From contig CP053449.1 of assembly GCA_013285465.1 (NCBI GenBank), forward strand, positions 1-64,000: a DNA stretch of 64,000 bases, in the 5' to 3' direction. This DNA is from Pseudomonadota bacterium (GTDB lineage: Bacteria > Pseudomonadota > Alphaproteobacteria > Micavibrionales > CSBR16-224). The notes under the pieces were generated by a model. It was not told the DNA's origin. It saw only the letters and a program-made list of their open reading frames with translations, and did no database searches. A program made the position numbers and the translations under genes. Of this stretch, positions 43,433 through 50,642 are shown one piece after another (position 1 is the first letter of the stretch; each line of letters opens with the position of its first letter).

Positions 43433-43849
43433 CTATTTCTTTTTGGCGTCTTTCGGCGGGCGGTGACGGTATTCCAGCAGCAGAATATAGGCTTTGACGG
43501 CGGGCATCAGGAAAAAGACCGCAACCGCCCCCAACCCGCCGACATAGAGAAGATGAACCCAGATCGGCGGCGCGAATTTGACATCGATAATCCAGGCCAG
43601 CGGCATCAGGGAAAAGCCGAGCAGAAAAATCAGAAAAACGGCGGCACCGTCGCCGATATCATGGTCGCCCAGCGCTGCGCCGCATTCCGGACATTTTTTT
43701 GTGATGGTCAGGAAAGCGGAAAACAATTTCCCCTTGCGGCAGACCGGGCAGCGCCCTTTGAGGGCAAAGCCGAGATCGGAGAAAAGGCCCGGCGTTTCCT
43801 CCGGGCCCTTATCATTTCCCTTATGCTGTTTGGGGGCGGTTTTAGGCAT
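43433..43849 (-). CDS. DUF983 membrane protein of the oxidase operon
   Basis: 138 residues from ATG 43849. A zinc-ribbon-like pair of motifs, CPVC and CPEC (about residues 34-56), precedes two membrane helices (about 70-90 and 98-120). DUF983 genes commonly follow ctaE in alphaproteobacteria, and the proteins may help oxidase assembly; the exact role is not known. It overlaps the ctaE stop by eight bases, so it is translationally coupled. A longer frame runs upstream to 44185 but lies inside ctaE and is not coding. Confidence 0.88.
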   Translation of the reverse strand: MPKTAPKQHKGNDKGPEETPGLFSDLGFALKGRCPVCRKGKLFSAFLTITKKCPECGAALGDHDIGDGAAVFLIFLLGFSLMPLAWIIDVKFAPPIWVHLLYVGGLGAVAVFFLMPAVKAYILLLEYRHRPPKDAKKK

Positions 43850-44678
43850 TGCCCCACCAGTAAACAGCGCAGAACAGAAACAGCCAGACGACATCGACGA
43901 AATGCCAGTACCATGCGGCGGCTTCGAAACCGAAATGGCTTTCGGGTGTGAAATGTTTCTTTTTGGCGCGGAAATAGCATACGGCCAGAAAGATCGTTCC
44001 GACCAGAACGTGGAAACCGTGGAAGCCCGTCGCCATGTAAAAGGCCGAAGAGTAAATGCCGTCGGTAAAGCCGAAGCTGGCATGGAAATACTCATAAGCC
44101 TGAAAACAGGTAAAGACGATACCCAGCAATACGGTGTAAAGCAGGCCGCGGACGGCGTTGTCGTTATCGCCTTCAAGAATGGCATGATGCGCCCATGTAA
44201 CCGTACAACCCGAGAGCAGCAAAATCATTGTCATCAGGAAGGGCAGGCCGAAAGCGGGGATTGCATGAACGCCCTCCGGCGGCCAGACACCGCCGATCGC
44301 ATCTGTCGGGAACAGGCTGGCATTAAAGAAAGCCCAGAAAAAAGCGAAAAAGAACATAACTTCCGAGGCGATAAACAGCGACATACCGTAACGCATTCCG
44401 ATTTTCGCAATCGGCGTATGCGCTTTTTCTTCGACGGCTTCGAAAATCACATCCTTCCACCAGAAAAACATGACAGCCAGAACGGCGGCGAGGCCAAGGA
44501 AAACGCCTTTTAATCCGACGGATTGTCCGAGGAATTTTACCTCATGCATATAAAGCACGGCACCTGCTGCCAGTAGAAAAGCGGCAATCGCACCAAAGAA
44601 CGGCCAGATGCTGGGTCTGACGATATGATACGGATGCTCTCCGCCGCTTTTGAAGTCATATTCGATTTTTTCCGACAT
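43842..44678 (-). CDS. ctaE: Cytochrome c oxidase subunit III
   Basis: 278 residues with seven membrane helices, the third core subunit of the aa3-type oxidase. The start reads KIEYDFKSGGEHPYHIVRPS, and the family motifs FHASFGFTDGIYSSAFYMATGFHG and AAAWYWHFVDVVW are present. It follows ctaG by 34 bases and overlaps the DUF983 gene. Confidence 0.97.
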   Translation of the reverse strand: MSEKIEYDFKSGGEHPYHIVRPSIWPFFGAIAAFLLAAGAVLYMHEVKFLGQSVGLKGVFLGLAAVLAVMFFWWKDVIFEAVEEKAHTPIAKIGMRYGMSLFIASEVMFFFAFFWAFFNASLFPTDAIGGVWPPEGVHAIPAFGLPFLMTMILLLSGCTVTWAHHAILEGDNDNAVRGLLYTVLLGIVFTCFQAYEYFHASFGFTDGIYSSAFYMATGFHGFHVLVGTIFLAVCYFRAKKKHFTPESHFGFEAAAWYWHFVDVVWLFLFCAVYWWGNA

Positions 44679-44712: not shown

Positions 44713-45321
44713 TTACAGGTTATTGTAGTTTTTTTCCGCGTCTTCTTCCAGCTCTTCGGAGTCGGCGGGATAAAAAGTATAGGAGAGTGTGATCGTGTCC
44801 ACATCATCCATGTAAGGGTCTTCCGCCAGTTTCGGTTCAATATAGAAAGAAACCAGCATATCGACCTCTTCACCCGGCGCCAGCGTCTGTTCGTTAAAGC
44901 AGAAACATTCGACTTTGTTAAAATATTTACCGGCTTTTTGCGGTGTGACATTAAAAAGCGCCATACCGGTATTTTTGACATCACCGGTGTTTTTTGCCAT
45001 GTAATGCACCTGACGGTCCTCGCCGATTTTAATCGTGACGGATTTTTCTTTGGCTTTAAAAACCCAGGGCAGTTTGCGCGAAGTATTGGCATCAAAGCGG
45101 ATGGTGATATCACGGTCAATTGCTGCATGTTCGGGGGCTTTTTCGGCTTTTTGCGTCGTGCCGCCATAGCCGGTGACGCGGCAGAACAAATTATAAAGCG
45201 CAGGTGTTGTGAAGGTCAGCCCGACCAGAACACAAAAACCCAGCATAATGGAGAGGAAGATTTTTTTGTTCTTCCGGTCCATTGCGGCGATATCATGCTC
45301 TTTATTCTGTTTTTTTGCCAT
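44713..45321 (-). CDS. ctaG: Cytochrome c oxidase assembly protein CtaG/Cox11
   Basis: A 202-residue copper chaperone that loads the CuB site of subunit I. One N-terminal membrane helix (about 22-42) anchors a periplasmic beta-sandwich domain. The copper-binding CFCF motif is in KVECFCFNEQTLAPGE, followed by the MLVSFYIEP strand. It lies between the small membrane protein gene and ctaE. Confidence 0.96.
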   Translation of the reverse strand: MAKKQNKEHDIAAMDRKNKKIFLSIMLGFCVLVGLTFTTPALYNLFCRVTGYGGTTQKAEKAPEHAAIDRDITIRFDANTSRKLPWVFKAKEKSVTIKIGEDRQVHYMAKNTGDVKNTGMALFNVTPQKAGKYFNKVECFCFNEQTLAPGEEVDMLVSFYIEPKLAEDPYMDDVDTITLSYTFYPADSEELEEDAEKNYNNL

Positions 45322-45492: not shown

Positions 45493-46410
45493 TCAAAGCG
45501 CACCAATCATCAATGCGGCAAAAAGACCGAACAGGTAGAAGATTGAAAAGGCAAACATTTGCCGTGCCGGTTTGTGATCATCCTCCGTTGCGCGGAAAAC
45601 GCGGATGGCGCAGCGCAGGAACAGCATGTTTAAAATTGCGGCCGTCGCCAGATAAAACAATCCGCCCATATGCAGCAGATAGGGGGCAAGTGCCAGCAGG
45701 CAGACAATCACGGTATAGGCCAGCATCTGGCGTTTGGTCGCACGGCTTCCGGCAATAACGGGCAGCATCGGTACGCCTGCGCGTTTATAGTCGGCGTTGC
45801 GGAAAAGTGCCAGCGCCCAGAAATGCGGCGGTGTCCAGAAAAAGATCAGCGAAAACAGCAGCAGGGATTCGGGCGAAATGCTGCCTGTGACGGCTGCCCA
45901 GCCGATCATCGGGGGGAAAGCACCGGCCGCGCCGCCAATGACAATATTTTGCGGCGTGCGGCGTTTCAGCCAGATCGTATAGACAAACACATAAAACAGC
46001 GAGGCGGCGGCCAGCAGCGCTGCGGCCGTCCAGTTCAAGGCCAGCCCCATCAGCATGACGGAGAGGATGGTCAATACAACGCCAAAGGCCAGCGCATCAT
46101 CCGGCTGCATCCGTCCCTGCGGCAAGGCGCGCTGTTTTGTGCGTTTCATCAGCGCATCAATATCGCGGTCATACCACATATTGATGGCACCTGCCGCGCC
46201 GGAGGCCAGTGCGATACAGAAAACGGCAATCACGGCCAGAAACGGGTGCAGATCTTTTGCCCCCGGTGCCATCAGCATGCCGCAGAATCCGGTAAAGACG
46301 ACAAGCGACATTACCCGCGGCTTCAGAAGACTGATATAGTCTCTGACGCTGGCCTCGGGAAATGCGGGAGAGGTCCCCGCGTATCCGGAATATTTCTGTT
46401 CTATCGACAT
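45493..46410 (-). CDS. ctaB: Protoheme IX farnesyltransferase
   Basis: A 305-residue polytopic enzyme that adds a farnesyl group to heme b, making heme O for the oxidase. The prenyl-diphosphate-binding motif NMWYDRDIDALMKRT and the second Asp-containing loop (NADYKRAGVPMLP) are visible, with about nine membrane helices. It lies between ctaD and the 44-residue gene in the oxidase operon. The heme A synthase CtaA is not in this window. Confidence 0.97.
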   Translation of the reverse strand: MSIEQKYSGYAGTSPAFPEASVRDYISLLKPRVMSLVVFTGFCGMLMAPGAKDLHPFLAVIAVFCIALASGAAGAINMWYDRDIDALMKRTKQRALPQGRMQPDDALAFGVVLTILSVMLMGLALNWTAAALLAAASLFYVFVYTIWLKRRTPQNIVIGGAAGAFPPMIGWAAVTGSISPESLLLFSLIFFWTPPHFWALALFRNADYKRAGVPMLPVIAGSRATKRQMLAYTVIVCLLALAPYLLHMGGLFYLATAAILNMLFLRCAIRVFRATEDDHKPARQMFAFSIFYLFGLFAALMIGAL

Positions 46411-46437: not shown

Positions 46438-48881
<2,444 letters not shown>

Positions 48882-48945
48882 GGGGAGCCTCCTTAATACG
48901 AGAGATTATTCTTTTTATTTCTTATGGTGTCGGATACGCGCTTTT

Positions 48946-48959
48946 TTGACCTAGGTCAA
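48946..48959. promoter_or_regulatory. FNR/FixK-type palindrome upstream of the oxidase operon
   Basis: TTGACCTAGGTCAA is a perfect 14-base palindrome. It fits the FixK-type consensus TTG(A/C)-N8-(T/G)CAA and differs from the classic FNR box TTGAT-N4-ATCAA by the fifth base of each half. It lies 65 bases before ctaC and about 130 before the divergent M32 gene, so it may control either. Regulation by oxygen is an inference. Confidence 0.55.
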
Positions 48960-49088: not shown

Positions 49089-50642
49089 ATGGCAGGCAAG
49101 GATTGCGATAGGCTGTTAAAGAAGGTCAATGAGGCGGTTTACCGCCGCGACCGCTTTATTTTTAAGGTGCTGACGGCGGAAAACGCATTGGCTCGGAATT
49201 TTGCCGCCGTCAGTTTCCTGCATAATGAATTATCGCTGCACAGTCTTGTGAATAAGAAACAGCTGAAAAAAGCCGTTGAAAATATGAATGCGGAAACGGA
49301 TCCGGTGCGTCTGGCGCATTTAAAGCGGGTGAAACATTACCAGATACATCAAGGCAGCGGCACAAAGCGTGATCTGGTGCGCCGCGCTTTGGCAATGTCT
49401 TCCACGGAGGGGAAGTGGCGCAAGGCAAAAGCGAAAGGTGACTACGGTATTGTCGCAGGCGCTTTTGACAAGCTGGTGAAAATCAGCCGCGATTTCGGCA
49501 AGAACAAGGCGGGAAAGCTTGGCTTGTCTTCGCCTTATGAAGCCCTGATGGATGAATTTGATCCGGGGCGCGATGTCCGCCATTTTGACAAAATGGTCGC
49601 CGGACTGGAAAGTTTTATCAAGCCGCGTATCGCCGGCTTGCCCCCCGCAGAAGAGACAGCGGAGAAAACAGACCCGCTCTTTGCATTGCCCAAAGATGTG
49701 CAACGCGAATTATGCCGGAAAATTCTGGACCATATGGGGCTGGATATGGACGCGCTGGAATTCCGTGACGGGCCGCATCCGACCTGTTTCGGGGAAAGCG
49801 GGCGCGTGATGATGACGATGTCCTATAAGGAGGATGATTTCACTTATGCGGCGCTGGCTGCCGTGCATGAGGGCGGTCACGCCTTGTACCGTCAACATAC
49901 GCCTGCGGAGTATCTGCAAGGGCCGGCGGCGGAGGTATCCAGCCAATCGACCGATGAATCCATGGCGCTGATTTTTGAAAACGCCTATGGCCACAGCCGC
50001 GGCTTTGCCGAATTTCTGGTGAAGACTCTGAAAGAGGATTTCGGTATCAGCTCTCCCGATCTGACGGCGGACAAGCTGTTCCAGCAATTGCAGAAACAGG
50101 ACATGTCGCTGCTGCGCGGCGCAACGGGGGAAGAGGTTTATCCCCTGCATATTGCACTGCGTTATAATACCGCCCGCGATATGATCGACGGCGGCAGATC
50201 GGCGCAGGATATGCCGGAGAAATGGGCAAAGGAAGAGGACGCGCTGTTTGGCTGCGGGGAAAAAATCACGGAACGCCCGATGCAGGATATTCACTGGTAT
50301 GGCGGTAAAATCGGTTATTTCCCTTGCTATCTGACGGGGACATTAATGGCGGCGCAGATTTTTGAAACCGCGCTGGATGAAAAACCGGAGCTGGAGCAGG
50401 CGATTGCCGATTTCAATACCGCGCCGCTGATTGACTGGCTGAAAGAGAATGTTTACAGCAAAGCGCCGCGCCATACATCGGATGAATTGGTCAAAGAAGT
50501 GACAGGCAAAAAGCTTGATATTGATGCCTTTAAAAACCGCGTTATTAAAAGTGCCGCGGCGAATGGCAATAAAGCGGTGAAAAAATCCGCGCCACAATCA
50601 GCCTTGCGGAAAAAAACAGGAGGAAAGTTTTCTCCTAAATGA
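49089..50642 (+). CDS. Carboxypeptidase Taq-type metallopeptidase (M32)
   Basis: A 517-residue cytoplasmic zinc carboxypeptidase. The zinc motif is HEGGHALYRQ, followed by the Glu ligand in SQSTDESMALIFE and the ending HWYGGKIGYFPCYLTGTLMAAQ. The last about 25 residues are a Lys-rich tail. Ribosome site AGGAGAGAG precedes ATG 49089. It overlaps the TauE-type exporter gene by four bases. Confidence 0.93.
   Translation: MAGKDCDRLLKKVNEAVYRRDRFIFKVLTAENALARNFAAVSFLHNELSLHSLVNKKQLKKAVENMNAETDPVRLAHLKRVKHYQIHQGSGTKRDLVRRALAMSSTEGKWRKAKAKGDYGIVAGAFDKLVKISRDFGKNKAGKLGLSSPYEALMDEFDPGRDVRHFDKMVAGLESFIKPRIAGLPPAEETAEKTDPLFALPKDVQRELCRKILDHMGLDMDALEFRDGPHPTCFGESGRVMMTMSYKEDDFTYAALAAVHEGGHALYRQHTPAEYLQGPAAEVSSQSTDESMALIFENAYGHSRGFAEFLVKTLKEDFGISSPDLTADKLFQQLQKQDMSLLRGATGEEVYPLHIALRYNTARDMIDGGRSAQDMPEKWAKEEDALFGCGEKITERPMQDIHWYGGKIGYFPCYLTGTLMAAQIFETALDEKPELEQAIADFNTAPLIDWLKENVYSKAPRHTSDELVKEVTGKKLDIDAFKNRVIKSAAANGNKAVKKSAPQSALRKKTGGKFSPK

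Follow-up and report, generated by a model that had tools for sequence, protein, structure and literature searches.

A predicted FNR-type operator upstream of the aa3 oxidase operon in a Micavibrionales bacterium

The cta locus and its divergent spacer

The window, that is, the whole stretch of DNA analysed here (64,000 nucleotides, from position 1 of contig CP053449.1 in assembly GCA_013285465.1), belongs to a Pseudomonadota bacterium of the alphaproteobacterial order Micavibrionales and carries an aa3 oxidase operon on its minus strand (Table 1). The ctaC gene is divergent from a gene for an M32 peptidase, and the 207-bp spacer between the two contains TTGACCTAGGTCAA, a TTGA-N6-TCAA inverted repeat of 14 bases that is separated by 65 bases from the ctaC start codon, a GTG at 48881 on the minus strand. 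The initial annotation had described a perfect FNR/FixK-type palindrome at this position and distance, exactly as found here, and had proposed that an oxygen regulator acts through it on the aa3 oxidase. The genome also contains a ccoN-like gene of the COX1 family, which lies behind fnrA and ompW, and no CydA match that would point to cytochrome bd as a third oxidase was found in it.

Table 1. Features of the ctaC region (window coordinates) and CRP/FNR regulators of the genome
Feature	Position	Strand	Evidence or details
ctaE, subunit III	43842..44678	-	PF00510
ctaG/Cox11 assembly protein	44713..45321	-	PF04442
UbiA-family prenyltransferase, ctaB-like (gene name ctaB presumed)	45493..46410	-	PF01040
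ctaD, subunit I	46438..48000	-	PF00115
ctaC, aa3 oxidase subunit II, GTG start	48003..48881	-	TIGR02866 CoxB 202.5 bits, above cut-off; PF00116
Likely ctaC ribosome-binding site AAGGAGG	48888..48894	-	sequence
CATAAG, possible degenerate -10 of P2	48921..48926	-	counterpart of TATAT in congener G003 and family relative G005; weak alignment, left unaligned by BLAST
FNR-type box TTGACCTAGGTCAA	48946..48959	.	perfect 14-bp palindrome
Predicted -10 GAAAAT of P1	48964..48969	-	4/6 matches
Predicted -35 TTGACA of P1	48987..48992	-	10/12 consensus matches, spacer 17
M32 carboxypeptidase, divergent neighbour	49089..50642	+	PF02074
FnrA	genome 527530 (L019:1031-1786)		Cys 9, 113, 215, 218, 226, 234, 240, 245
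FnrB			adjoins NnrS; Cys 29, 162, 226, 235
FnrC	genome 2311375 (L020:14376-15176)		Cys 96, 234, 237, 245, 253, 256

The box motif and its possible readers in the genome

The loose pattern TTGAN6TCAA occurs twice in the 64-kb window against 1.61 occurrences expected, which is the level of chance, so the genome-wide motif was used for significance instead. In the genome, a single contig of 2,673,443 bases (2.67 Mb), the loose pattern was found in 57 copies and its reversed control in 12, and the search for the same site that had been suggested in the initial annotation gave 15 copies of TTGAYYNNRRTCAA against 0 of the reversed control pattern. Reading of the surroundings of all 15 sites placed 14 in intergenic regions or across a gene end (those at 528282 and 2321990 overlap a stop codon), the site at 912033 being the sole one inside a reading frame. 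Nine of these 14 belong to loci with genes for nitrate/NO respiration or with cbb3, nrdD, hemN-like or related genes, that is, the motif precedes other low-oxygen genes of the genome: fnrA, ompW-ccoN, a hemN-like radical SAM gene, moaA/fnrB, narG, narK/fnrC, moeA together with an SCP2/U32 pair (ubiT/ubiU-like), nrdD and an NO reductase gene. The other five are the ctaC box and the sites at 405463 (receiver-domain-like gene), 2317595, 2321990 (fatty-acid-hydroxylase gene) and 2545816. Among the neighbours of the sites, the COX1-family ccoN-like gene, narG, NnrS, nrdD, NO reductase, SCP2 and U32 were recognised by family scan, and the remaining gene names are those that we presume. Taken together, the 14 sites look like a low-oxygen and nitrate/NO-respiration regulon in which the ctaC box is an ordinary member by score, as it reached 20.2 on a matrix built from 12 sites of the same genome with the ctaC box left out, the 12 themselves scoring 18.1-21.6.

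Two of the sites have a noteworthy arrangement of their own. At 2317595 (L021:1595-1660), TTGATCTGGGTCAA is followed after 23 bases by a perfect TATAAT; this promoter points into a spacer in which no frame of at least 90 aa is listed as starting, and the congener keeps the box, making the spacer a candidate for an anaerobically induced small RNA. Before fnrA, the box (L019:1002-1015, genome 527501) is so close to the gene, with just 22.5 bases between its centre and the start codon, that its placement would fit autorepression.

Matches to HTH_Crp_2 were detected in three proteins of the genome, designated FnrA, FnrB and FnrC, and an objection from the absence of any FNR-family regulator therefore fails. 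All three carry the recognition helix ETFSR, in agreement with the E-x-x-S-R rule for readers of FNR-type sites. A chance origin of TTGACCTAGGTCAA is unlikely because three such regulators are present and TTGAYYNNRRTCAA is so clearly enriched over its reversed control, and we infer that the box is very probably a genuine binding site for at least one of them. The label FixK/FnrL given to the regulator in the initial annotation appears to be wrong at the protein level, since none of the three proteins reached the NCBIfam cut-offs for Fnr (best 41.8 of 228 bits), FnrL (best 38.9 of 300 bits) or FixK (best 53.2 of 300 bits), and none has an N-terminal cysteine set of the kind that holds the [4Fe-4S] cluster in E. 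coli FNR. FixK, for its part, is under FixLJ control. In FnrA and FnrC the C terminus contains C-x2-C-x7-C-x7-C, extended in FnrC by x2-C, and these cysteines possibly define an unusual sensor class; FnrB is without this motif. The beginning of the motif, as LC-x2-CD, is found in 28 of 30 FnrC loci of the order (the remaining two are without a readable frame) and in all four FnrC loci of the class, where 6 of 389 genomes, two of those in this order, encode FnrC-like proteins (E 1e-50). In this genome, fnrC and a narK-like gene are transcribed away from each other and have an FNR box in the spacer that separates them.

Promoter geometry and distribution of ctaC boxes among relatives

The box starts 4 bases downstream of the predicted P1 -10 and lies over the predicted start point. 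A second placement is suggested by an apparently ancestral promoter common to G003 and G005 (TTAACA-17-TATAT): if its counterpart P2 remains in use, a weak alignment puts the right half of the box in the place of the P2 -35. The promoters are consensus predictions; the scan found 2 of its grade in the region, against an average of 0.6 in shuffled versions of it. Repression is favoured under either placement, as the box would cover the P1 start or the P2 -35. In the class II activator layout, a -10 hexamer follows the box by 21-24 bases. At ctaC, no hexamer with 5-6 matches to TATAAT was found 18-27 bases downstream of the box, and the best one at spacing 21-24 has 3/6, whereas 5 of the 19 other site/direction pairs (ompW, ubiT, 2317595, 405463 and fnrA, the last with its hexamer inside its own gene) have a 5-6-match hexamer at that spacing; this is a weak clue to direction because the other 14 pairs are also without one.

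In the congener G003, whose CtaC is 89% identical, the flanks of the spacer align by BLAST whereas the segment 48921-49044, including the box, does not, and no box was found in a forced alignment of the spacer. These approximately 124 bp correspond in position to about 212 bp of other sequence in G003, between flanks that are 86-91% identical, and the ctaC promoter segment thus looks replaced or strongly diverged between the congeners. No CtaC match was obtained in a second congener, G004. Among the 13 other intergenic sites, 11 align in the congener and all 11 keep TTGA-N6-TCAA, the sites at the NO reductase gene and at 2545816 being unaligned.

Within the order, CtaC matches were found in 113 of 142 genomes and 90 ctaC upstream regions were scanned, the degraded copy in G006 and the CtaC matches that were fragmentary or ranked lower being left out. 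A first scan (score 9, 500 bp) gave 10/90 against a permuted mean of 5.7, a count that was reached by 14 of 100 permutations and is not significant. In a 250-bp scan, whose thresholds were picked after the first scan and whose count of 90 includes the genome where the site was first seen, boxes were detected in 6/90 at score 12 (0/300 permutations), 4/90 at 14 (6/300), 4/90 at 15 (1/300), 3/90 at 16 (1/300) and 3/90 at 17 (0/300). The four genomes with a score of at least 15 before ctaC are G000, G010, G012 and G130, this genome counted, and the mean of 300 column-permuted matrices at this score was 0.26. Exclusion of this genome left 5, 3, 3, 2 and 2 of 89 at scores 12, 14, 15, 16 and 17, numbers reached by 3, 5, 1, 2 and 0 of 300 permutations, respectively (permuted mean 0.22 at score 15). 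As a positive control, a site of at least 15 was present within 350 bp before all 30 FnrC matches, the fnrC locus having supplied one of the 12 training sites of the matrix.

In the class, 6 of 27 ctaC loci scored at least 15 (permuted mean 0.05; 0/300 reached 6), all of them in genera g83 and g179; the 27 loci are the top-ranked ones among 303 genomes in which a match was found, and genomes of the same genus are not independent. Four members of these genera (G495, G393, G457 and G279) have no strong box (at least 15) before ctaC. Boxes before ctaC have a patchy distribution, yet they outnumber the permuted means in both order and class. Conservation of the site before orthologous ctaC genes, a check named in the initial annotation, is largely lacking, given its absence in G003 and its strong form in few genomes of the order. 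By this comparison the ctaC site is lineage-specific, and it seems to be a recent gain of this lineage.

The boxes of other genomes differ in placement. In G130, the box directly follows a promoter that is conserved in the siblings G128 and G135, which are without the box; in G010 and G012, it falls near the -10 of their siblings (loose alignment, 45% identity); and in genus g83 its place is next to the -35 or on top of it rather than at the start. In G265 of this genus (L169:1271-1471), tandem FNR-like boxes, TTGATCTGAATCAA and TTGATTTGCGTCAA, were observed before ctaC, the second of which overlaps the -35 of a TTGATT-17-TATAAA promoter. It is conceivable, although rather doubtful, that independent gains have repeatedly placed boxes over the core promoter of ctaC in the order (families f1, f3 and f6), and that their readers in this organism are CRP/FNR proteins of a class that senses oxygen through a C-terminal, not an N-terminal, cysteine cluster.

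Direction of control and comparison with known systems

Oxygen-linked control of aa3, as proposed in the initial annotation, is well supported by sequence because the box fits the genome's own CRP/FNR motif and sits on the ctaC promoter region; the direction, which had been left open, is more likely to be repression. We consider it somewhat probable that the box mediates repression of aa3 at low oxygen. Under such conditions, a CRP/FNR regulator would occupy the ctaC promoter at its start point or its -35 and keep ctaC and the genes downstream from being transcribed, the same regulators would switch on the cbb3 oxidase together with nitrate/NO respiration, and the organism would thereby exchange its low-affinity aa3 oxidase for cbb3.

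It is also possible, if unlikely, that the box is an activator site through which a class II regulator maintains aa3 expression when oxygen is low or nitrate is respired. The weak -10 hexamers TAAGAA (spacing 21) and AAGAAA (spacing 22) come near class II geometry, many other sites of the genome are likewise without a good -10 at this spacing, and the g83 boxes located just upstream of the -35 could activate; however, the best hexamer at ctaC is below the 5-6/6 seen at ompW, ubiT and 2317595, and in the published FnrL cases, as given in the relevant parts of PMC5398030 and PMC4263372, aa3 is lowered. An improbable variant of repression takes FnrB to be NO-responsive and the main reader of the box, so that nitric oxide, not low oxygen as such, would turn aa3 off. 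A single base sets the ctaC box apart from TTGACCTGGGTCAA, which precedes the NO reductase gene, and FnrB is the regulator that is without the C-terminal cysteine motif and next to NnrS; on the other hand, the identical 14-mer stands upstream of an nrdD-like frame, of anaerobic function, in the family relative G005, and the specificity of the regulators cannot be split by sequence because their recognition helices share ETFSR. That no regulator is involved, and that the palindrome arose by chance or is made up of the -35 hexamers (TTGACC) of two divergent promoters set back to back, is very improbable: on both strands TTGACC matches the -35 consensus at 5/6 positions, TGTAAA (4/6) follows 18 bases on along the plus strand and most relatives are without the site, but the promoter scan lists no promoter with the box as -35, and the box fits perfectly a motif that has 15 copies against 0 of its reversed control and lies almost only outside frames.

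Repression at low oxygen, if correct, would provide a testable rule of oxidase choice for a little-studied alphaproteobacterial lineage, in which one regulator family turns aa3 off and cbb3 on. In addition, as the ctaC site is lineage-specific while the congener keeps most of the other sites, the gain of aa3 control can be studied in this closely related pair of genomes.

As for the sensor, the C-terminal cysteine cluster of Bacillus Fnr holds a [4Fe-4S] cluster, and FnrA and FnrC resemble it, at the level of sequence, in having C-terminal cysteines in a CRP/FNR protein; their spacing is the C-x2-C-x7-C-x7-C described above, with the additional cysteine of FnrC. In Dinoroseobacter shibae, according to the passages of PMC5398030 on this regulator, FnrL senses via an Fe-S cluster, represses aa3 and induces cbb3, and ctaCBGE and ctaD are lowered anaerobically. 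CRP/FNR-type control of aa3 is shared with that system as portrayed there, being predicted from sequence in the present case, whereas the regulators here are without the N-terminal cysteine set and two of them have a C-terminal one. In Rhodobacter sphaeroides, a table that PMC4263372 gives with its account of the CrpK and FnrL regulons has the target RSP_1877-6 (coxI, aa3 subunit I) under '-' and ccoNOQP under '+'; an aa3 gene is a target there and a predicted one here, under a different regulator. Moreover, FixK/FnrN sites were predicted before ctaCDBXGE in Caulobacterales and before the cta operon in Rhizobiales (PMC4999443), and, to the extent that this source describes them, these predictions agree with ours in motif type, operon and the use of comparative genomics and concern other orders. 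Among the open-access matches listed, none was recognised as dealing with the control of ctaC in this order. In view of the published repression by FnrL and the predicted cta sites, the ctaC box would represent a lineage-specific case of a control that is already known.
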